Part shown: piece after piece, positions 3 through 43,994 of the stretch
Layout: each line of letters opens with the position of its first letter
Position numbering within the stretch: position 1 is the first letter of the stretch
DNA from: a virus
IMG/VR virus record: IMGVR_UViG_3300020215_000081
Coordinates: 1-43,994 of that record
Strand: one strand, 5' to 3'
DNA length: 43,994 nt
Position numbers and translations under genes: made by a program
The notes under the pieces: model-generated
What the model was told of the DNA's origin: nothing
Databases searched by the model: none
What the model saw: only the letters and a program-made list of their open reading frames with translations

Positions 3-671
3 CTGCGCGACGCGCTCGGCGGCGTGCTCGCGCAGATCGAGGCTGGCATCGCGCAGATGAACCAGCAGCTCACCGAGGGGATGAGCTCGGCCGGCATGAC
101 GCTCTCGGAGCTCGGGATCGAGCAGCTCGTCCAGGAGATCAAGCGGTTCGAGCGGATCTTCTCGGGCGCCGTGGTGCCGATCAACGTCAACGTCGTCCAG
201 GTCGCCTCGGACACGTCGAACTTCCTGTTCAACAAGTACGAGGCGAGCATCTCGGCCTACTCCGAGCAGATGCGCTCGCTGTTTGCGCAGAACCTCTCGC
301 TCGCCGCGGTCGAGGAGATCCCGATGGGCGAGGTGGTCGCGCGCGTCGGGAAGTTCTTCCTGGGTGAGGAGTGGCGGCTCACGCGGATCGTCCGGACCGA
401 GCTCATGGGCGTCTACTCCTACGGGAAGCTCGCGGGGATGCGCGAGGTCCAGCAGAAGGATCTCCCGGACCTCATGAAGACGCTCTATATCCCGCTCGAC
501 GCTCGCACAGGCGACGACTCCAAGGTGCTCTCGAAGAACATCCCGGTCGTCCCGGTCGATGAGCCGTTCGTCGAGTACTCGCTCGGCCACAAGGCGACCT
601 ACATGGCGCCGCCGAACCGCCCGAACGACCGATCGATCCTGATTCCGTACCGCGAGTCGTGGAGCGGCTAG
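3..671 (+). CDS. Minor head protein, Mu gpF-like (3' part)
   Basis: This is the C-terminal portion of a gene that starts at 43690; joined across the circle it encodes about 278 residues. Seen: a helical N-terminal half, then the segment RIVRTELMGVYSYGKLAGM followed by a conserved Asp-rich stretch (LDARTGDDSK). This resembles the core of the Mu gpF / SPP1 gp7 head morphogenesis family (PF04233). Such proteins sit inside or near the portal in low copy and assist head assembly or genome delivery. Order portal, cassette, this gene, scaffold, capsid fits. The histidine usually found late in the family motif is not obvious. Bases 1-13 diverge from the other copy (LRDA in place of AQK). Confidence 0.75.
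   Translation: MRDALGGVLAQIEAGIAQMNQQLTEGMSSAGMTLSELGIEQLVQEIKRFERIFSGAVVPINVNVVQVASDTSNFLFNKYEASISAYSEQMRSLFAQNLSLAAVEEIPMGEVVARVGKFFLGEEWRLTRIVRTELMGVYSYGKLAGMREVQQKDLPDLMKTLYIPLDARTGDDSKVLSKNIPVVPVDEPFVEYSLGHKATYMAPPNRPNDRSILIPYRESWSG
14..139. repeat. Terminal overlap, left copy
   Basis: These 126 bases are identical to 43869-43994, so the contig closes into a circle. The 13 bases before the repeat (1-13) do not match the 13 bases before the right copy, although both read in frame within the same gene. A length near 127 is what a k-mer assembler leaves at the ends of a circular contig, so this is more likely an assembly overlap than a biological terminal repeat. Confidence 0.9.
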
Positions 672-725: not shown

Positions 726-1433
726 ATGAAGCCAGGAGCTACTGAGCAGACCCAACAGGCTGAGGGCGATAAGTCGGGCACTGCCGCCCAAGGTGAGAAG
801 GATCAGGGGAAGGCCGCGGCTGCGGGACAGCAAGGCGACCAGAACCAGCAGGCCGATGACGACTCGATCTACTCCGACCCCGCGAAGGTGAAGGAGCTGG
901 TCAAGTCGCTTCGGGATGAGAACGCCAAGCATCGCAACAAGAACAAAGACCTCGAAGGTCGGTTCACTGCGCTCGAGGCGACTCAGAAGAAGCTCAAGCA
1001 GGCGCTTGGCGTCGGCGAGGAGGAGACTGACCCGGCAGAGCTGGCGAAGTCTCTCTCGACCGAGAAGCAGGCGCTCGAGGTCGAGCTCGGGATCGCTCAT
1101 CTGGCGCTCGAGCACGGAGTTCCCAAGGACGGCATGAACTACTTCCGGTTCCTCCTGAGCTCGAAGCTCGAGGGCTTGGAAGAGGGTGCCGAGCTCACCG
1201 AAGACGACGTCCAGGCGATCGTCACTGAGGTGACCAAGGTCGGCGGCAAGAAGGCCGGTGGTGGTTCGACGGGGATTGATGCCTCGTCGCGCCCGAATGC
1301 TGACGCCACTTCGGCGGTGACGGCAGAGGCCTTCGCCAAGATGAATCTTGGGGAAAAATCCGCGCTCTACCAGAAGAACCCCGAGCAATACAACAAACTG
1401 TTCAACGAGGCGCGCGAGAAGCGGCTTCTCTGA
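726..1433 (+). CDS. Capsid scaffolding protein
   Basis: A 235-residue acidic protein. The first 45 residues are Gln/Gly/Ala/Asp-rich and probably disordered. Residues 53-125 are a charged heptad-like helix (Lys/Glu/Leu) with coiled-coil character, and the C-terminus ends in a basic helix (NEAREKRLL). This is the usual form of phage scaffolds of the gp20 minor structural type, which direct prohead assembly and then leave. It lies directly before the major capsid gene, the normal position. The start follows a strong ribosome site, AAAGGAGGT, 5 bases before ATG. No separate prohead protease was recognised anywhere in the genome. Confidence 0.75.
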   Translation: MKPGATEQTQQAEGDKSGTAAQGEKDQGKAAAAGQQGDQNQQADDDSIYSDPAKVKELVKSLRDENAKHRNKNKDLEGRFTALEATQKKLKQALGVGEEETDPAELAKSLSTEKQALEVELGIAHLALEHGVPKDGMNYFRFLLSSKLEGLEEGAELTEDDVQAIVTEVTKVGGKKAGGGSTGIDASSRPNADATSAVTAEAFAKMNLGEKSALYQKNPEQYNKLFNEAREKRLL

Positions 1434-1453: not shown

Positions 1454-2356
1454 ATGGGTGCAACTCAGAAGTCGGATATCGCGTTCGTCCCAAAGGTTTG
1501 GTCGGACCACATCCTGGCCTACTTCGATCGGAAGATGGGCCTCGGCCAGCTCGCGCTGGTGGACAAGACCCTGACCGGCAAGCCGGGCGAGACCGTGACC
1601 TTCCCGTACTGGAAGAAGGTCGGCGCGGCTCAGAAGCCTGCCGAGAACGAGTCGCTGGTCGTCGATAAGCTGTCCGACGACGCCTTCTCGTGCACGGTGT
1701 ACGAGCTCGGCAAGGCCGTCGGCTGGAACGACGCCTCGATCCGCAAGAGCGCCACGGGTCCGGATGACGCCGCGGCCGAGAGCGAGGCTCAGCGCCAGAT
1801 GGCTCAGGTCATCGCTGAGCAGGTGGACGCCGATCTCATCACCGAGATCAGCACGTCGGGCAAGTACGCCGATGGCTTCGTCGCCGCCGATGCCAACGGC
1901 AAGGCGACCGTCGCCAACATCCTCGAGGGCAAGGTGCTCGGGTTCGGCGACAAGCACGACCAGGCCATCGCGATCGCGATGCACTCGCTGTGCTTCCTGG
2001 ACCTGATGAAGGACGCCGGGACGGCGTTCCTCTCGGCGCAGGCCACCGACCCGATGTACGGCGCCCCTGGTTTCCAGGGTCGTCTGCTCGGCCAGGCGCT
2101 CTTCACGCTCGACTCGATGCCGCAGCTCGCGAACGTCGCGTCGAAGAAGACCTTCGCCGCGTACTCCTTCAAGGCCAACCCGTTCGGGATCTACATCGCG
2201 AACGACCTGCACCCTGAGAAGGATCGCGACATCCTGGCTCGCGAAACGATCGTGACGGCGACCATGTGGCTCGGGATCCTCTCGCTCCACGCCAAGGTCT
2301 CCGCGAGCGACAAGCGGATCCTCCAGCACACGTTCGCCACCAGTCAGGCGGCGTGA
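1454..2356 (+). CDS. Major capsid protein
   Basis: A 300-residue protein lying between scaffold and connector genes and followed by the strongest terminator of the late region. The sequence has the features of the N4-gp56-like branch of HK97-fold coat proteins: an early segment (FDRKMGLGQLALVDKTLTG), then GETVTFPYWKKVGAAQ, and the VYELGKAVGWNDASIRKS stretch around residue 95. It should form the icosahedral shell. The ATG follows GGAGGAATGATAG. No Ig-like insertion or long N-terminal delta domain is present, which agrees with a separate scaffold gene. The fold assignment is from pattern recognition, so the subfamily is less sure than the role. Confidence 0.8.
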   Translation: MGATQKSDIAFVPKVWSDHILAYFDRKMGLGQLALVDKTLTGKPGETVTFPYWKKVGAAQKPAENESLVVDKLSDDAFSCTVYELGKAVGWNDASIRKSATGPDDAAAESEAQRQMAQVIAEQVDADLITEISTSGKYADGFVAADANGKATVANILEGKVLGFGDKHDQAIAIAMHSLCFLDLMKDAGTAFLSAQATDPMYGAPGFQGRLLGQALFTLDSMPQLANVASKKTFAAYSFKANPFGIYIANDLHPEKDRDILARETIVTATMWLGILSLHAKVSASDKRILQHTFATSQAA

Positions 2357-3055: not shown

Positions 3056-3409
3056 GTGGCTCTATCCAGCGCGCAGAAGACCAAGATCCTCCGACTCCTC
3101 GGGTGGCCTTACGGCACGCTGGTCTCCACGTCGCTGGACTACTCCAACATCGTCAAGCGCCAGCTCGACGGGATCTCGGGCGACGCGCAGACCGAGGTCG
3201 AGTCGCTCCTCACGCGGCTCGATACGATCGACACGCAGCTCGACGCCAAGCTCAAGCAAGCCGGCATCAAGCGCCTCGACGACATCGAGTTCTACCAGGA
3301 CAGCCATAAGGTTCTGAAGTCCGAGAAGAACCGCGTGCTCATCGACCTAGCCACCCTAATCGGCATTCCGATGCGGAGCTGCGGAGCCAACGGCAACGTC
3401 GTCGTATGA
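3056..3409 (+). CDS. Putative head-tail connector protein
   Basis: A 117-residue, mostly helical protein starting at GTG three bases after the previous stop, with AAGGGGG upstream. Residues about 38-72 form a long amphipathic helix (GDAQTEVESLLTRLDTIDTQL). The small helical form and the place directly after the head genes fit the gp15/gp6-type adaptors that extend the portal. It overlaps the next gene by four bases (ATGA), so the two are translationally coupled. Function is inferred from position; no decisive motif is visible. Confidence 0.55.
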   Translation: MALSSAQKTKILRLLGWPYGTLVSTSLDYSNIVKRQLDGISGDAQTEVESLLTRLDTIDTQLDAKLKQAGIKRLDDIEFYQDSHKVLKSEKNRVLIDLATLIGIPMRSCGANGNVVV

Positions 3410-3810
3410 TCGAGGAGCTTAGAGAGAACATCAATTCGATCCTGACTCTCCGAGATGACCTCGGGGCTGCGAAGGCGCCGGTCTACCTAGTAACCCGTCG
3501 CTGGTCCGGATCTGAGCCCGGCGATGGGGAGTACCGTGACACGGAAGTCCCGGTTCTCCCCTCTCCGGCGATCCAGCAATACACCGACGACATTCGAATC
3601 AAGGAGGGCGGCGCGATCCAGCAGAGCGACATCAAGCTCCGATGGGTCTCGCGCCAGAGCTTCCCGGTGAAGTCCGAGATCGACGGAACGACCGACGACC
3701 AGGCGGTCGAGAAGCTCTATCGGGTGGGCGACGTCTACTACACCGTTATCGCGGTCGAGGAGCGCCTACTCTGCTGGCATGTCCTACTTCGGAGGAAGAG
3801 CAAGCAATGA
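3406..3810 (+). CDS. Putative head closure / neck protein
   Basis: A 134-residue protein beginning in the ATGA overlap with the gene before. Its C-terminal half is beta-rich (IKLRWVSRQSFP, VEKLYRVGDVYYTVIAVEERL), reminiscent of the small beta-barrel head-closure proteins that seal the filled head. It overlaps the start of the next gene by four bases. Position between connector and gp10-like genes supports a neck role. The assignment is inference. Confidence 0.5.
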   Translation: MIEELRENINSILTLRDDLGAAKAPVYLVTRRWSGSEPGDGEYRDTEVPVLPSPAIQQYTDDIRIKEGGAIQQSDIKLRWVSRQSFPVKSEIDGTTDDQAVEKLYRVGDVYYTVIAVEERLLCWHVLLRRKSKQ

Positions 3811-4424
3811 GCGAAGACAGAGTGAGATTCATTCGGCGCCGCGGGCGCGTGATTCCGATTCGCGAAAAGGGCAGCAAGGTAAAGCGGGCTCCGGGGGGCT
3901 GGGTTGTCTCCAGTCGCAGCCCGACGCTCGAGGCAATCCGTCGCGAAGAGCGCAAGCTTGACCGAGAGGAGCTCGCTCGTTCGTTGGCTCCCCAGAAGTC
4001 AGGCGGGGGAGGTGGATTCGGCTCGCGGTTCCTCGCTGGTGCAAAGATCGGCTCAGGCGTAGGAGCCTACTTAGGCATCTTCGCGGCCGGGAGCTCAGGG
4101 GCGATCTTTAAGTCGATCTCGCGCGGCGCAGCCATTGGCGCCGCAGCCGCGGGAACGCTGAATGCGGTAGCGGGCTCGAGCACCGAAAAGGAGACCACCG
4201 GCCCGGTCGGTCTAGGGATGCTCGGCCTGGCTTCGTATGGCGGCGCTAGCTTCGCGGCCCAGACCAAGCCGGGAATGCGCGTCCTTGCCGCTCTAGGAAA
4301 GGCTCGCATTGTTGCGGGCGAGGCTACCATCTCGCGCGCACAGCGGGCGGCGTGGCAAGCGAAGGCCGAGACCGAGACCGCAAAGATCCTCAAGAAGCTC
4401 AACCTCAAGGTCAAGCGGCCTTGA
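3807..4424 (+). CDS. Motif-tagged glycine-rich membrane-active protein
   Basis: A 205-residue protein starting at ATG 3807 after GGAGGAAGAGC. Residues 8-18 carry the short motif FIRRRGRVIPI found also in four proteins at 41.7-43.1 kb. A charged helix follows (about 38-65), then a Gly/Ala-rich region, about residues 69-150, with SGVGAYLGIFAAG and AIGAAAAGTLNAVAG, resembling glycine-zipper membrane segments. The C-terminus is a basic amphipathic helix. The plan matches 43051-43689. No enzymatic motif. A plausible role is an internal head protein that inserts in the host membrane during DNA ejection. This is inference from composition and location among neck genes. Confidence 0.6.
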   Translation: MSEDRVRFIRRRGRVIPIREKGSKVKRAPGGWVVSSRSPTLEAIRREERKLDREELARSLAPQKSGGGGGFGSRFLAGAKIGSGVGAYLGIFAAGSSGAIFKSISRGAAIGAAAAGTLNAVAGSSTEKETTGPVGLGMLGLASYGGASFAAQTKPGMRVLAALGKARIVAGEATISRAQRAAWQAKAETETAKILKKLNLKVKRP

Positions 4425-4434
4425 GCTCCAGGCC

Positions 4435-4953
4435 GTGACCGAGCGGAAGGTCGTCAAGCTCGAGGAGCTCGCGCGCGAGCTCGGGGCCTTCTCAGACGCT
4501 CATATCGAGCGCCTGAAGAACGCCACGCTCTCCGGGATCATGAAGTCGATCCCGATGCTGGTCGAGCGATCTCCGATCGATACAGGCCTCTACGCGCAGA
4601 GCTGGGGCTTTCAGCGCGAGGAGTGGGGCGCGATCCTGGGCAACTACGCGCCGCACGCGCCGATCATCGAGTACGGGGCGCGGCCGTTCACGCCTCCGAT
4701 CGGGCCGCTTCTCGAATGGGCAAACCGTGTGCTCCGCAACCGAGTGAAGGATCCGGAGACTGGCGAGAAGTTTGTGACCGGGCCGCAAGGGAGCGGGCCG
4801 GATTACGAATATTCGAGCGACGTGTGGGCGCTCGCCAAGACGGCACAGAAGAAGATCGCCGAGCGCGGCATCCAGCCCCGGCACATCATGGAAGACGCAA
4901 TTCCCGAAATCATCGAAAACATCAAACGGGAGTTCGAGAACCTTGGCAAATAA
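4435..4953 (+). CDS. HK97 gp10-like tail/neck protein
   Basis: A 172-residue protein. The segment SPIDTGLYAQSWGF, followed by HAPIIEYGARPFTPP and a helix beginning LLEWANRVL, is the typical signature of the HK97 gp10 family (PF04883) and of neck or tail-completion proteins, in which a 'hAp..E.G.....' core is conserved. It helps join tail to head. The likely start is GTG 4435, eleven bases after the previous stop; no better start lies nearby. The end overlaps the next gene by 11 bases. Confidence 0.75.
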   Translation: MTERKVVKLEELARELGAFSDAHIERLKNATLSGIMKSIPMLVERSPIDTGLYAQSWGFQREEWGAILGNYAPHAPIIEYGARPFTPPIGPLLEWANRVLRNRVKDPETGEKFVTGPQGSGPDYEYSSDVWALAKTAQKKIAERGIQPRHIMEDAIPEIIENIKREFENLGK

Positions 4954-22934: not shown

Positions 22935-23010
22935 TGGTGCCCCGGGCTGGACTCGAACCAGCAACGCGGCGATTTTAAGTCGCCTGTCTCTGCCATTGGA
23001 CTACCGGGGC
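22935..23010 (-). tRNA. tRNA with anticodon UAA (Leu), short variable loop
   Basis: On the minus strand the cloverleaf is complete: 7-bp acceptor (GCCCCGG/CCGGGGC), D stem GTCC/AGAC with one mismatch, anticodon stem GGCGA/TCGCC with loop CTTAAAA (anticodon TAA), 5-base variable loop GCGTT, T stem GCTGG/CCAGC with TTCGAGT, discriminator A and an encoded CCA (22935-22937). Leu tRNAs normally have a long variable arm, so the charging identity is uncertain. It lies six bases beyond the integrase stop codon, on the same strand. Confidence 0.92.
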
Positions 23011-38393: not shown

Positions 38394-38671
38394 AACCGAA
38401 GTGGGCATTCCTCGCCGGCTGGTGGGTCTGCCTGATCCTGGTCGGATGCGCCGGCTTCACCTTCCGCTACTACGGGCTCGAGGGCGTCAGGTACGAGGAC
38501 GGGAAGCTCCTGGGCGCCGAGCCCAAGGACGATCTCCCGTTCTCGGCCTGCGCTCCTGATGGCCGCGTCAAGCAAAAGTGCGTCGTCATGTTCGTCAGCG
38601 AGTTCTTCAAGCTCAAGACGGACTACGAGGACACCAAGGAGCAGCTCAAGCAGTGCCAGCAAGGCGACTGA
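38381..38671 (+). CDS. Small lipoprotein (spanin-like)
   Basis: A 96-residue protein. Residues 8-22 are hydrophobic (WAFLAGWWVCLILVG) and end in a lipobox with Cys23, so the mature protein should be lipidated. The rest has three further cysteines and ends in a charged helix (FFKLKTDYEDTKEQLKQCQQ). Outer-membrane lipoproteins at this position are typical Rz1-type spanins, but this one is longer than most. Its presence argues for a diderm host. Confidence 0.65.
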   Translation: MGSLKPKWAFLAGWWVCLILVGCAGFTFRYYGLEGVRYEDGKLLGAEPKDDLPFSACAPDGRVKQKCVVMFVSEFFKLKTDYEDTKEQLKQCQQGD

Positions 38672-39989
38672 GCTCGAGCGGCGCCTCCACGGATCGGGGG
38701 TCTGTCTGGACGGAAATCAGGGGAAGAGAGAGCAAGCCAAAGCAATCTATCGGCGGGTTCAGACCGAGCTCGGGCGGCGGCCATCCTATCGCGAGCTCGT
38801 CAAGCTCGGGCCGCTTTCCAGTCGCCAGATAGCCAAGCACTTCGGCACGTTCAACGCAATGGCGGCCGAGTGCGCAGCGGCTCCGGAAAGTGCGCAGGCA
38901 CCCACCGAGGCCACGCCTGCCGAGGCGACCCCTGGCGAGCGGCTCCAGATCGTTCGGCTCCGGAACGAGCTCGAGCAGACCCGCAAGCTCCTCCGTGACG
39001 CCGAGGAAACGGCACTGACTTCGAACAAGATGATCGAGCTCATCGGCTCGATCGACTGCTCGAAGATCGGGGAGAGCGCCTCCTGGCTCACTCCTCCTGA
39101 GCCGGCCGCGGATACGATCGGGATCCCGGTTCTCTTCTTCTCCGACTGGCACTTCGACGAGGTCGTGGATCCGGCTCAGATCGGATTCGTGAACGCGTAC
39201 AACCGCGAGATTGCCGAGGCTCGCGCTCGTCAGACATTCCTGACGACCGTGCGGCTCACGAAGCGGCACATGGTGAATCCCAAGTACGAGGGGATCGTGC
39301 TCGCCCTGGGCGGCGACCTCCTGAGCGGCAACATCCATGAGGAGCTCCGCGAGTCGAACGAGGCGAGCATCAACATGTCGCTCCTGCGCGCGACGGACAT
39401 CCTGATCGAGGGGATCGAGCTCCTCCTCGCCGAGTTCGGCCGGGTGTTCGTGCCGTGCGTGGTCGGTAACCACGGACGCATCGACAAGAAGCCGCGGGCA
39501 AAGAACCGGGTGTTCGATAACTACGAGTGGCTGATCTATCAGTACCTCGCGCGCCACTTCAAGAGTCGGCCCGAGGTCAGCTTCTACATCCCGGACGGAC
39601 CCGACGCGCTCTTCCAGATTTACGGGAAGCGTTTCATGCTCACGCACGGCGATCAGTTCAAGGGCGGCTCCGGGATCTCCGGGATCCTCACGCCGCTCTC
39701 GCTCGGCTTCGCGCGCAAGCAGAAGCGCCAGCAGGCCATCGGGCAGCCTTTCGACATCATGATGTTCGGGCACTGGCACCAGTACATCCACACGCAGAAC
39801 TTGATCGGCAACGGCTCGCTCAAGGGTCTCGACGAGTACGCATTCCAAGGGAATTTCGGCTACGAGCCGCCGCAACAGAGCCTCTTCATCGTGCATCCGG
39901 ACCACGGGATCACCTTCCGAATGCCGGTGCTGTGCGATCCGCAGCCGTCGCGCGAGGTGCAGCCGACCCCGCTCTCGGTCATCTGGTAG
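38559..39989 (+). CDS. HNH-repeat / calcineurin-like phosphoesterase fusion
   Basis: The listed start is the first ATG, but the first 35 residues are a Ser-rich frame inside the lipoprotein gene, so the real start is probably later; no ATG, GTG or TTG follows for 60 codons, and CTG 38706 after GGGGGT is possible. Residues about 71-108 (GRRPSYRELVKLGPLSSRQI, then AKHFGTFNAM) match the homing-endonuclease-associated repeat, a DNA-binding unit. From residue 190 a metallophosphoesterase follows: Asp196-x-His198 (FFSDWHFD), GGD253, GNH305, TH363GD, H405-W-H407. Role may be DNA or nucleotide processing. Confidence 0.7.
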   Translation: MAASSKSASSCSSASSSSSRRTTRTPRSSSSSASKATELERRLHGSGVCLDGNQGKREQAKAIYRRVQTELGRRPSYRELVKLGPLSSRQIAKHFGTFNAMAAECAAAPESAQAPTEATPAEATPGERLQIVRLRNELEQTRKLLRDAEETALTSNKMIELIGSIDCSKIGESASWLTPPEPAADTIGIPVLFFSDWHFDEVVDPAQIGFVNAYNREIAEARARQTFLTTVRLTKRHMVNPKYEGIVLALGGDLLSGNIHEELRESNEASINMSLLRATDILIEGIELLLAEFGRVFVPCVVGNHGRIDKKPRAKNRVFDNYEWLIYQYLARHFKSRPEVSFYIPDGPDALFQIYGKRFMLTHGDQFKGGSGISGILTPLSLGFARKQKRQQAIGQPFDIMMFGHWHQYIHTQNLIGNGSLKGLDEYAFQGNFGYEPPQQSLFIVHPDHGITFRMPVLCDPQPSREVQPTPLSVIW

Positions 39990-40039: not shown

Positions 40040-41512
40040 GTGATCACCCAGCTCGTCAACGGTATCCGTAAGGTGAGTCGCTCCGAGCGGCGTGCGAGGA
40101 ACAATCTCGGCGTCGTCAACCTCACGGGCACGCAGGCGAACAAGCAGTTTCGCAAGCCCGAGCTCGAGCGGTACGACGCCTATTACGAGTCGCGCCAGTA
40201 CGACCATCTCATGGGATGGGACTCCGCGGCCGAACAGGACAGCTACGTCGCGATCCGCAGGCGCAAGCCGCGCTTCAAGGTCGCGTTTGCCAAGACGCTC
40301 GCCGAGCGCGTGGTCTCGAAGCTCCTGGGCGACCAGCGTTTCCCGATGCTCGAGGTCGCCGACTCCCCGGACGATCAGGCGTTCCTGAAGGCCGTGATCC
40401 GCGAGTCGAAGCTCAAGAGCCGGCTGCTCGAGCCGATGCGCCGGTGCGTGAATGCGGGCTCGATCTTCGTCCGCTTCTACCTCTCGGGCGGCGCGATCCG
40501 GGTCGAGTGGTACTCGGCCAAGGTCTGCTACCCGTTCTTCGGGCCGGCCGGCGAGCTCGAGCTCCTCACGGTCAAGTACACCTACGAGGACCAGGAGGAC
40601 AAAGACGCGATCGGCAACCCGCGGAAGAAGTGGTTCCGCATGGACTTCGGGACCGAGTCGGAGATCCTCTACGACAATCCGCTCTACGTCGAGGGCCAGG
40701 AGCCGGAGTTCCAGGAGGTCGCGCGCGTCGATCACGGCTTTGGATTCGTCCAGGGCGAATGGTTCCGCACCGCGGAGATCCCCAACTCCGAGGACGGCTA
40801 CGGCCTGGTCGCCGACCTCACGGAGTACATCGACGAGCTCTGCTATTCCCTCTCGCAGAGCTCGCAGGCGGTCTCCTACAACCAAGACCCGCAGCTCACG
40901 CTCAACGGCATGGACGAGGAGGAGATCGGCACCCTCATCCGCTCGGCGATGAAGAGCTGGAACCTCGGGCGCGAGGGCGAAGCCAAGTTCCTCGAGAGCA
41001 ACCTGGCCGGCGTCGAGCGCGCCATCGAGCTCCGGGACAAGGTCCGGCTCAACATCCAGGACATCTCGCGCGTCGTGCTGCTCGACCCGGAGAAGATCGT
41101 CGGAAACGCGCAGAGCGCAAAGGCGATGGAAACGCTTCACGGGCCGCTCGTGGATCTCGTCAACGAGCTCCGCGCGCCGATCGGCGACTCGATCAAGAGC
41201 CTGGTGCTCAAGATGGCGATGGCCGTTCTGATTGCCAAGCAGCAGGGCCTCGACGTGCCGATGGACATCCCCGCGGGCTACGCGCCGAAGGGGATCTTCG
41301 CGGCCGAGCTCGTCTGGAATCCGATCTTCCAGGAAACGATGGAGGATCTCCAGAAGAAGGTCCAGGTAGCCTCCACCGCGACCTCGGCGAACATCATTTC
41401 GCGCGCGACCGCGACCAGGTGGCTCGCCAAGGACTTCGGCATCGAAGACGTCGAGGCCGAGCTCGCGGAGATCGCCAAGCAACCCATCCTCAACCCCTTC
41501 GGGAGCTTCTGA
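40040..41512 (+). CDS. Portal protein
   Basis: A 490-residue protein from GTG 40040 with GCGGAGGACGCCA in front. The layout is that of SPP1 gp6-like portals: an early KPRFKVAFAKTLAERVVSKL, a beta wing (GAIRVEWYSAKVCYPFFGPA), the central EYIDELCYSLSQSSQAVSYN, and the long helix plus VLLDPEKIVGNAQSAKAMET near residue 350. The dodecameric portal is the gate for DNA. It is followed by small motif-tagged proteins and the minor head protein. Confidence 0.88.
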   Translation: MITQLVNGIRKVSRSERRARNNLGVVNLTGTQANKQFRKPELERYDAYYESRQYDHLMGWDSAAEQDSYVAIRRRKPRFKVAFAKTLAERVVSKLLGDQRFPMLEVADSPDDQAFLKAVIRESKLKSRLLEPMRRCVNAGSIFVRFYLSGGAIRVEWYSAKVCYPFFGPAGELELLTVKYTYEDQEDKDAIGNPRKKWFRMDFGTESEILYDNPLYVEGQEPEFQEVARVDHGFGFVQGEWFRTAEIPNSEDGYGLVADLTEYIDELCYSLSQSSQAVSYNQDPQLTLNGMDEEEIGTLIRSAMKSWNLGREGEAKFLESNLAGVERAIELRDKVRLNIQDISRVVLLDPEKIVGNAQSAKAMETLHGPLVDLVNELRAPIGDSIKSLVLKMAMAVLIAKQQGLDVPMDIPAGYAPKGIFAAELVWNPIFQETMEDLQKKVQVASTATSANIISRATATRWLAKDFGIEDVEAELAEIAKQPILNPFGSF

Positions 41513-41731: not shown

Positions 41732-42217
41732 GTGGCAAAGACGATCTTCCGCAAGATCGGCGGGCGGATCGTGCCCATCCGGATCGGCTCCGTCCGCCTG
41801 GACACCGACTTGATGGGAGGCAAGGCTCGAGACGTCTTCGCTAAGGTCGGCGACACCGTCCTGGGGCACGCCAGGATCGTCGTACCGGACGAGGGGAAGT
41901 TCGCGACGCTCGACTATGTCCGCGTCAACCACGAGTTCCGCGGCAAGGGCATCGGCCGGTCTCTCTTTAAGCACGCGCAGGAGCTCCTGGGCCGCGCAGG
42001 GAAGTCGTTCCTTCGCGCCGACAAGATCCAGCATCAGGCGCAGGTGAAGATCCGCGCCAGCGCGGGGAAGTCCGTCTTCATCGGTTACGGACGCGGACAG
42101 GCGAAGAAGCTGAGCCCGCTTGAGGCCATCAACGAGGTCAAGAAGCTGCGCAAGGGCCTCGACTACCGCGATGTCCAAGCCACCACGATGATCCCGAAGA
42201 AGTGGAGGAGGAAGTAG
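41732..42217 (+). CDS. Motif-tagged GNAT-like acetyltransferase
   Basis: A 161-residue protein from GTG 41732. Residues 6-16 are the motif FRKIGGRIVPI. Residues 59-90 are the acetyl-CoA binding motif A of GNAT enzymes (TLDYVRVNHEFRGKGIGRSL, with R70-G-K-G-I-G-R76), preceded by strands with a beta-bulge like GHARIVVPD. The C-terminus is basic (TTMIPKKWRRK). GNAT enzymes transfer acetyl groups to amines. In a head-gene cassette the enzyme could be a cargo injected into the host or act on capsid proteins. Confidence 0.7.
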   Translation: MAKTIFRKIGGRIVPIRIGSVRLDTDLMGGKARDVFAKVGDTVLGHARIVVPDEGKFATLDYVRVNHEFRGKGIGRSLFKHAQELLGRAGKSFLRADKIQHQAQVKIRASAGKSVFIGYGRGQAKKLSPLEAINEVKKLRKGLDYRDVQATTMIPKKWRRK

Positions 42218-42505
42218 ATGGGCTGGCGGGTCGTCTTCAGACGCGTCGGGCGCCGCGTGATCCCGATTGCCACGACCACCGAGACCATCTCCGAGATGCG
42301 CGCCGCGGGTAAGTCGTTTGCGAAGATCGCCGATCACTATGGAGTCAGCCCGACGAGCATCGAGCGCATCGCCAAGAACTTCGACCAGAAGGCCTACCGG
42401 GCAGCCCTGAAGCGACCGGCCCAGGTAGCGAGCGCGAAGGTTTCGTCGAAAGACGCGAGGCAGCTCGAGGCCAAGTTCCTCGAGTGGCTCAAGAGGAGGA
42501 AGTGA
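42218..42505 (+). CDS. Motif-tagged helix-turn-helix protein
   Basis: A 95-residue protein directly after the GNAT-like gene. Residues 7-17 are the motif FRRVGRRVIPI. Residues about 22-52 form a resolvase/homeodomain-like helix-turn-helix (TISEMRAAGKSFAKIADHYG, then VSPTSIERIAKNF). The C-terminus is basic and helical (QLEAKFLEWLKRRK). A DNA-binding protein in the head cassette is notable. It overlaps the next gene by one base (TGATG). Confidence 0.7.
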   Translation: MGWRVVFRRVGRRVIPIATTTETISEMRAAGKSFAKIADHYGVSPTSIERIAKNFDQKAYRAALKRPAQVASAKVSSKDARQLEAKFLEWLKRRK

Positions 42506-43047
42506 TGGAGCTCATCAAGCCCAACCCGCACGCGCCGCAGGTCCGCTTCATCCGGCGCAATGGCCGCGTGATCCCTCTCATCTCGGGCAACCGTGCCGGC
42601 GTGAAGCCGCGGGTCGCGACCCGGATCGTGCGCGACCAGGTCGAGGCGATGAGTCAGGCCGTCGAGGTCGCCGAGAAGGGTCAGCGCGTTCACCTCGGCT
42701 ACGGCACGAGCCACGAGGTTCGCGGCTTCGGCAGCTCCTTCCCGAAGTTCTACGGCGAGCTCGGCTTCCGCAACAAGGCAGACTTCCGCAAGGTGCTCAA
42801 CACGCCGGGAGCGCGCCAGTTCCGGCTCATGGATCAGGCCGTGCGGGACATCAAGGCCGGCCATTCCTACGGCACCGGGCTCCCGAACCAGTCGAGGCGG
42901 TTCGAGCTCGCGACGCGCCAAGTTTTCGACAACACGAACGTCGTCTTCCGGAAGATCGACGGCAAGGTTCGGCCGCTCCGGCTCAAGGGAGCCCGAGGGT
43001 CGCAGGTAACCCGGGACTCGAGCTCCTGGATGGACTTCATGGGGTGA
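42505..43047 (+). CDS. Protein with the shared motif at both ends
   Basis: A 180-residue protein. The motif stands near the N-terminus, residues 15-25 (FIRRNGRVIPL), and again at residues 148-158 (FRKIDGKVRPL). Between lies a soluble alpha/beta region (VEAMSQAVEVAEKGQRVHLG, then YGTSHEVRGFGSSFPKFYGE). The last residues (TRDSSSWMDFMG) are polar. Two copies in one chain could bridge two partners or mark a cleavage. I recognise no enzyme. Start ATG 42505 lies in a TGATG overlap after GGAGGAAG. Confidence 0.7.
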   Translation: MELIKPNPHAPQVRFIRRNGRVIPLISGNRAGVKPRVATRIVRDQVEAMSQAVEVAEKGQRVHLGYGTSHEVRGFGSSFPKFYGELGFRNKADFRKVLNTPGARQFRLMDQAVRDIKAGHSYGTGLPNQSRRFELATRQVFDNTNVVFRKIDGKVRPLRLKGARGSQVTRDSSSWMDFMG

Positions 43048-43050
43048 ACA

Positions 43051-43689
43051 ATGGCTGATGTCGTCTTTCGCAGAGTACGGGGCCGCGTGGTCCCGATCAG
43101 AGCCCGGGGCGCGACTCATCCCGCGACTGGCTCACGGAGCCCCGGCCCGCAGCGTTCTAATGGGGTGGACTCGCGCGGCGCCGGGGCTTCCGTTGGCAAG
43201 AAGGTCGCCGGAATCGCGGCCGGCATCGGGGCTGCGCTCGGAGGCGTGGCGGTGAGTGCCGGCTCCGGCCTGGCCGCCGCGGCGATGGACATCCGCGCCC
43301 ACAAGTTCCGCTCCGTCGCTGGTGCGGCTGAGCGGCGGGCGTTCAAGATTTGGGGCAAGAGGCCCGCCCAGGCGCACCGCTACATGCGGATCAGCGAGGA
43401 TCTCATCCAGCGCGGCGTGCGCGCGGGCAAGCTCGGCACGCACATCGGATCGGTCGGCAAGCTCGCCGGGACGGCCATGATCGGCTACGGGATCAACCGG
43501 ATCCTCCGCGAGACACCGGCCAAGGACAATCCGGAGGCCCGCGGCGCGGCCTCCACCGTGGCAGCCTTCGCCGCGACCCATTCCCTCCAGGGCGTCTACA
43601 TGACCCGATTCTATCGCGACGTGAGCGGCATGGGCGCGATCCGCAAGGCCCTGTCGCTCGCCATCGGCAAGGGCAAGAGGCTCTTCTAA
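43051..43689 (+). CDS. Motif-tagged glycine-zipper protein
   Basis: A 212-residue protein. Residues 6-16 are the motif FRRVRGRVVPI. Residues about 47-80 (GKKVAGIAAGIGAALGGVAV, then SAGSGLAAAAMD) form a glycine-zipper hydrophobic segment, and a second Gly/Ala-rich stretch (GKLAGTAMIGYGINRI) stands near residue 138. The C-terminus is basic (AIGKGKRLF). The plan of motif plus glycine-rich membrane-active region is shared with 3807-4424. It may assist membrane passage of DNA at infection. Confidence 0.7.
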   Translation: MADVVFRRVRGRVVPIRARGATHPATGSRSPGPQRSNGVDSRGAGASVGKKVAGIAAGIGAALGGVAVSAGSGLAAAAMDIRAHKFRSVAGAAERRAFKIWGKRPAQAHRYMRISEDLIQRGVRAGKLGTHIGSVGKLAGTAMIGYGINRILRETPAKDNPEARGAASTVAAFAATHSLQGVYMTRFYRDVSGMGAIRKALSLAIGKGKRLF

Positions 43690-43994
43690 GTGGCCGAAGA
43701 GTTCCAGGCCAACCCCGAGGTCGAGACCGTGCTCGAGGGGCACGCGCGCCAGCTCTCCAAGCTCAACCAGGAGGAAATGAAGCGGGTACTCGAGCTCTAC
43801 AAGCGGGCTCGCCAGGACGTTCGCGACCGGCTGGACGCCTACTCGGGCGGAACCTTCACCGCGCAGAAGCTCGGCGGCGTGCTCGCGCAGATCGAGGCTG
43901 GCATCGCGCAGATGAACCAGCAGCTCACCGAGGGGATGAGCTCGGCCGGCATGACGCTCTCGGAGCTCGGGATCGAGCAGCTCGTCCAGGAGAT
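43690..43994 (+). CDS. Minor head protein, Mu gpF-like (5' part)
   Basis: This is the start of the gene whose end is at 3-671. It begins at GTG 43690 directly after the previous stop. The first 60 residues are charged helices (EEFQANPEVETVLEGHARQL, then NQEEMKRVLELYKRARQDVR), typical for the N-terminal stalk of minor head proteins. Bases 43869-43994 repeat the left end of the window, so the reading frame continues at base 140 for a total of 837 bases. Confidence 0.75.
   Translation, partial: MAEEFQANPEVETVLEGHARQLSKLNQEEMKRVLELYKRARQDVRDRLDAYSGGTFTAQKLGGVLAQIEAGIAQMNQQLTEGMSSAGMTLSELGIEQLVQE
43869..43994. repeat. Terminal overlap, right copy
   Basis: Identical over 126 bases to 14-139. It lies within the minor head protein gene and shows that the window represents one full circular or circularly permuted genome. 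Confidence 0.9.

Follow-up and report, generated by a model that had tools for sequence, protein, structure and literature searches.

The window analysed here comprises 43,994 nucleotides of the IMG/VR virus record IMGVR_UViG_3300020215_000081 (positions 1 to 43,994). About 126 bases at one end recur in direct orientation at the other (14-139 = 43869-43994), which indicates that the genome is circularly permuted and probably complete; the MuF-like gene is split by these ends and continues across the junction. Judged by its genes, which include those for portal, MuF-like protein, a probable scaffold, capsid, neck, tail completion and sheath, the phage is contractile-tailed. The portal protein anchors the lineage described below, with about 39-65% identity across related contigs. 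Immediately 5' of the portal gene is an exonuclease-like gene (38559-39989; phrog_284, 6.8e-48), and a gene for tRNA-Leu (anticodon taa) is found on the minus strand at 22935-23010. The head-gene map is given in the table, together with five genes for small proteins that carry a common 11-residue sequence, here called the tag.

Head genes and tagged genes of the window, in order around the circular map (aa, amino acids; L003 is a relative)
Feature	Position	Strand	Tag, match or other basis
Portal protein, SPP1-type	40040-41512	+	SPP1_portal 7.8e-20; phrog_64 1.9e-23
Tagged protein 1, GNAT acetyltransferase, 161 aa	41732-42217	+	N-terminal tag 41747-41779, FRKIGGRIVPI
Tagged protein 2, helix-turn-helix body, 95 aa	42218-42505	+	N-terminal tag 42236-42268, FRRVGRRVIPI
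Tagged protein 3, two-motif, 180 aa	42505-43047	+	tags at both ends, 42547-42579 and 42946-42978
Tagged protein 4, glycine-zipper, 212 aa	43051-43689	+	N-terminal tag 43066-43098, FRRVRGRVVPI
MuF-like head morphogenesis protein, part 1	43690-43994	+	relative L003:309-1136 matches head morphogenesis/minor head PHROGs
MuF-like head morphogenesis protein, part 2	139-671	+	across the circular junction
Probable head scaffolding protein	726-1433	+	relative L003:1191-1925 matches scaffolding phrog_172, 3.8e-5
Major capsid protein	1454-2356	+	phrog_544 2.4e-24
Two neck-region genes	3056-3409 and 3406-3810	+	position and conservation across the lineage; no strong PHROG name; upstream border of the second tag slot
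Tagged protein 5, second glycine-zipper protein, 205 aa	3807-4424	+	N-terminal tag 3828-3860, FIRRRGRVIPI; neck/tail-completion slot
Tail-completion/Neck1 protein	4309-4953	+	phrog_5 1.1e-9; downstream border of the second tag slot

A preliminary description of this DNA had reported six ungapped copies of the motif, five near N-termini and one near a C-terminus, and all six are found where it placed them, on the plus strand and in frame; a six-frame scan of the window shows no further match. The F of the N-terminal tag is residue 6, 7, 15, 6 and 8 in proteins 1 to 5, respectively, and the sixth copy stops 22 residues short of the end of protein 3, for which the ATG at 42505 is a likelier start than the GTG at 42484. 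The same description had located all five genes between portal and neck. This is accurate for four, which lie between the portal and MuF-like genes; the fifth follows the second neck gene and precedes the tail-completion gene. Chance or amino acid composition is ruled out as the origin of the motif: the window read in six frames should hold about 0.0015 matches by chance, versus six found, and residue shuffles of the five proteins give one match per 200,000. With the related set in hand, the motif is better written [FY][RIV][RK]xxG[RK][VI][VI]P[IV]. Position 6, first read as G or R, is G in 181 of 183 distinct copies, the R of the copy at 42236-42268 being an exception; the conserved residues are R/K at 3 and 7, together with F1, I/V8, I/V9, P10 and I11.

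It is the peptide that is conserved and not the DNA, since the DNA has diverged while the residues were kept: the window copies have merely 14-24 of 33 bases in common, with frequent third-base codon differences at the same residues, and one peptide alone, FRRIRGRIVPI, is encoded by 12 different 33-mers. These data bear on the idea that the motif is a recombination or regulatory element of DNA or RNA, translated incidentally. Repeats beside the junctions of mosaic genes would fit such an element, but the motif is always on the coding strand and in frame, and the silent sites vary, for which reason a DNA repeat or recombination element was rejected; the idea is close to refuted.

The bodies behind the five tags had been described as entirely different from one another, and two of the proposed identities stand. 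Tagged protein 1 matches Pfam Acetyltransf_1 above the cut-off (7.7e-9), a fold search with its model matches RimI (Z 12.2, 2.8 A over 122 residues), and its RGKGIG fits the acetyl-CoA motif R/QxxGxG/A; it is a GNAT. The body of tagged protein 2 matches HTH_38 at 1.2e-5, slightly under the Pfam cut-off. The two-motif protein and both glycine-zipper proteins match no family well, and a fold search with the model of the former (mean pLDDT 60) found nothing significant. The two-motif family has 12 members in the analysed set, retaining one or both tags; the family of tagged protein 4 is the most widespread, with 47.

The motif is not peculiar to this genome. The first relative, IMGVR_UViG_3300038701_001717, was reached via the capsid (capsid 59% and portal 52% identical) and has three motif copies: two are carried by genes lying between portal and MuF-like, the third by a gene that follows the neck. 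Of the two portal-MuF genes, the first has a body unlike any in the window, so that tag and slots persist as the cargo changes. Three degenerate DNA patterns were then run against 2.9 million viral contigs and yielded 67 contigs with 72 loci, 199 tagged reading frames and 185 distinct proteins. Loci were mapped with window-derived profiles for portal, MuF-like, scaffold, capsid, neck, tail completion and sheath, and gene starts were set by rule, without a trained gene caller. The tag is terminal in all but one of these distinct proteins, and the one exception belongs to the window itself, where the gene was read from an improbable start further upstream. The preliminary description had named hits scattered with no link to phage head genes as evidence against itself; in the event, 65 of the 67 contigs carry the head genes of one lineage, and the other two are a 3.3-kb fragment (L058) and an out-of-frame chance match (L071). 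Tagged genes occupy the slot between portal and MuF-like in 35 of 37 loci and that between the second neck gene and tail completion in 16 of 27; a few lie just 5' of the portal, and none was found in the remaining gaps between marker genes of these loci. Untagged genes occur in the slots as well (15 versus 91 tagged in the portal-MuF slot, 19 versus 33 in the neck slot), several of them with degraded tags, although loci chosen by the motif cannot yield the true frequency of untagged genes.

To avoid choosing loci by the motif, a second set was assembled by a search blind to the tag, in which a 38-sequence portal alignment as query gave 112 relatives, with the best 80 retained and scanned with a slightly looser motif. 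In these 80, there are 211 matches: 176 N-terminal, 35 C-terminal and none internal. No match falls in the portal, capsid, neck or sheath markers of this set, or on the opposite strand. Among contigs that the tag had not found and that have a complete portal-MuF slot, 22 of 27 carry the tag there. Together with the pattern scans, this brings the viral contigs with the motif to over 85, from a single myovirus lineage, with 1 to about 7 tagged genes per genome.

This distribution speaks to a proposal in which the tag acts in the infected cell, docking late proteins on some host or phage factor (a membrane or a replication site), with the position among head genes reflecting only late transcription. 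Many tagged bodies do contain membrane-like hydrophobic stretches. Tail-tube and sheath genes are likewise late, however, and none of them has a tagged gene among them; and in 12 whole viral records the matches lie on one strand only, while a reversed control pattern has no match. We regard a role of this kind as very unlikely.

Clustering of the 179 distinct tagged proteins by sequence, with their tags masked, gives 71 groups, the largest being the glycine-zipper family of 47; this rules out a single duplicated gene family. Enzymes are evident among the bodies. Of 140 tagged proteins scanned, up to 8 match a Pfam GNAT model, and one of these GNATs has its tag at the C-terminus (L033:4863-5345), so that GNATs are tagged at either end. 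The same locus encodes an ADP-ribosyltransferase of the polyvalent type (L033:3536-4279; ART-PolyVal 2.6e-14); a PARP-like match is weak. A peptidase-like HExGH motif appears in eight tagged proteins, one of them also with a weak match to Tox-MPTase4. Three further proteins look by eye kinase-like (L039:5501), ATP-grasp-like (L042:4422) and NlpC/P60-like (L059:1066), readings without library support. Most PADLOC and NCBIfam matches of tagged proteins are single and weak, and are probably chance. Recognised enzyme domains number at most one per tagged protein among those scanned singly, and the proteins are small (median 174 aa; 5th-95th percentile, 91-278 aa).

Such variety bears on one of the two main rivals to loading into the head, namely that the tag serves as an assembly hairpin for a structure near portal or neck, and that its carriers are variable structural subunits, not delivered cargo. 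The genes directly adjoin those for portal, MuF-like and neck proteins, and in most loci one glycine-zipper family is the last gene before the MuF-like gene. Yet structural subunits should be conserved like their neighbours, and here the bodies differ wholly between relatives, enzymes included, and vary in number from genome to genome. A structural role seems quite unlikely to us.

The other main rival is DNA binding. All 179 tagged proteins are net basic, with a median of +15 charges per 100 residues, or +13 without the tag; head and tail marker proteins of the same loci range from -5.5 to +3, most being at about -3. The tag could then be a DNA-binding or DNA-condensing hairpin that holds basic proteins on the phage genome, entry into the head following from DNA binding, and the conserved R/K at positions 3 and 7 would suit this. 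Against it, the motif is equally hydrophobic, the bodies are basic even when the tag is removed, and DNA binding would not need confinement to genes beside portal and neck. We think it unlikely, while noting that basic charge would suit DNA binding outside the head equally well, which counts against head loading.

The end at which the tag sits can change within a family. Members of the two-motif family have an N-terminal tag only, a C-terminal tag only or both, with N-only and C-only proteins pairing at E values down to 1e-21; a protein with both tags (L009) is homologous to one with a single tag (L026; E 6e-78). Elsewhere, an N-terminally tagged protein (L024) has a C-terminally tagged homologue (L032; E 2.5e-6, tags masked). 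One protein (L070) has a degraded C-terminal tag and, near its N-terminus, a full tag that precedes a degraded copy. From these comparisons it seems that one tagged end would suffice and that which end matters little.

The shape of the tag is predicted to be a hairpin. In an AlphaFold model of the GNAT, built on a family alignment, the tag forms a beta-hairpin with strands at 3-9 and 12-23 (pLDDT 87-93 over residues 1-20; 88 overall). In the model of the two-motif protein, hairpins are placed at 13-18/21-26 and 148-151/154-157, with lower confidence that becomes low at the C-terminus. Most alignments with known GNATs start at residues 12-16, and their first aligned strand overlaps the second strand of the hairpin, which may thus join the GNAT sheet in tagged protein 1; because of this overlap, the tag is not neatly set apart from the body in that model.

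Untagged occupants of the slots have some features of their own. In the portal-MuF slot, two similar proteins (L033:4312-4860 and L061:5688-6245) start MGLF.R..S.F and form an untagged class; in the neck slot, three untagged proteins of 72-77 aa (L042:10288-10506, L021:635-868 and L057:2036-2263) have repeated glycine-rich stretches, for example GPQGxGG or SGGxGIAQE. Two of the five portal-chosen contigs that lack the tag in the slot, L103 and L108, encode a glycine-zipper protein there, related to the tag-less family profile at E 2e-10 and 0.0016, with a different N-terminal motif. On these proteins (L103:4111-4689 and L108:4270-4974) the tag is replaced by a second motif, GEGS[RK]GGKIIGHTKSGKPIY. 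It recurs in about 30 other viral contigs (L148-L182), often of larger phages and up to four per contig, and may be another localisation tag. Scanned carriers gave no convincing Pfam family, and the strings of the second motif that were tried are not printed in the literature searched.

The preliminary description knew of no named family for the first motif, and the searches agree: the tagged proteins are brought together by no family of Pfam, PHROGs, NCBIfam or PADLOC, the motif strings tried are not printed in the literature searched, and the collections and papers searched contain no description of the tag. Named phages are distant. Portal relatives among them reach only about 24% identity; the bodies and tag peptide tried found none except a marginal jumbo-phage acetyltransferase; and in phiKX2, which has the nearest portal, the motif is absent from the stretch examined. 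In 257 Gb of genome sequence from bacteria and archaea, one of two patterns had no match and the other had two, so that viruses of the lineage seem not to integrate, or else their hosts seem to be unsampled. The contigs L061 (JAFCCX010000028.1), from a Pacearchaeota MAG, and L062 (JANQEN010000293.1), from a Chitinivibrionales MAG, both bear the portal and other head genes of the lineage. They may be mis-binned viruses; L061 is equal in length to a viral record of the set, which suggests that its binning may be wrong.

What, then, could the tag be for? Its occurrence at either end, on unrelated basic bodies, in genes placed only by portal and neck, is best explained by a portable signal that loads basic proteins into the prohead for delivery with the DNA, and we consider this rather probable. 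A capsid-loading signal had already been suggested in the preliminary description, and the terminal position, the unrelated bodies, the exchange between N- and C-terminus and the uniform basic charge all fit one. Points against it are the imperfect separation of the tag in the GNAT model, the untagged genes in the slots and the five tagless contigs of the portal-chosen set. If prohead loading is correct, an 11-residue terminal hairpin would recruit unrelated basic proteins during assembly by attaching to a constituent of the prohead's interior, be it the scaffold, the lining of the capsid, the portal or the MuF-like protein; the probable scaffold and the major capsid protein of the window are candidate partners. 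Once loaded, the proteins would stay packaged alongside the DNA and be carried into the host when the phage infects. GNAT, ADP-ribosyltransferase and peptidase-like cargo might then act on host or defence targets, and glycine-zipper cargo may assist the entry of DNA or work at the membrane. From the gene pattern we infer that the proteins are in the virion, that the tag has a docking partner, and that the cargo reaches the host and has targets there. A broader version is possible, though its chances fall a little short of even: a lineage-wide hairpin system that delivers changing effector enzymes, attached at either end, and replaceable on the same cargo by the unrelated GSRGGKIIGHTKSGKPIY-type tag of other, often larger phages.

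Should the tag indeed load heads, sequence would be enough to list candidates for delivery with the DNA across the whole lineage, mostly proteins of unknown function, some of them presumably aimed at host defences. If usable at either terminus, such a tag would also be a convenient means, in the laboratory, of loading phage particles with proteins of choice. The known signals of T4 and P1 came from genetics, phage by phage.

Short terminal peptides that load unrelated cargo are familiar from encapsulins, tail-less compartments with an HK97-fold shell. The tag shares this anatomy; the loci described here differ in having genes for portal, MuF-like, neck, tail-completion and sheath proteins.

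In phage T4, the internal proteins IPI-III bear a capsid targeting sequence (CTS), about 10 residues long, that suffices to load foreign proteins, and gp21 cuts after L/I-x-E; the internal proteins are small and basic, with unrelated mature parts, and some act on the host (PMC9026906). Likewise, the tag is a short terminal sequence (all 211 matches in the portal-chosen set) on small and uniformly basic carriers with unrelated bodies. It differs in sequence, and the T4 signal is N-terminal, whereas 35 of those 211 tags are C-terminal. L/IxE cleavage signals are not enriched near the tag (20 seen versus 17.6 expected), and neither an S78 nor a CLP prohead protease turned up in the window (the model for S77, the gp21 family, gave no signal in controls). 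For these reasons, the tag resembles the T4 and P1 signals in anatomy and yet is no member of the T4 type. In P1, the N-terminal 30 residues of DarB are enough to direct a foreign protein to the head (PMC9024508). That too is a short N-terminal signal directing cargo to the head, as the tag would do, but it is described for DarB only, in an unrelated phage.

The cargo invites two further comparisons. Polyvalent proteins combine 2-15 domains in one polypeptide and have been proposed to be packaged in the head, encoded near portal and MuF genes, and injected (Iyer et al. 2017, PMC5512222). Effector chemistry, in the form of the ART-PolyVal domain, and the idea of head packaging are held in common; the carriers described here are instead small, mostly single-domain proteins united by a short tag. 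In MuF fusions, the effector domain is joined to the MuF head protein itself (PMC5512222). Both arrangements tie effectors to the portal-MuF neighbourhood, but in the lineage described here the effector has a gene to itself and bears a short tag.
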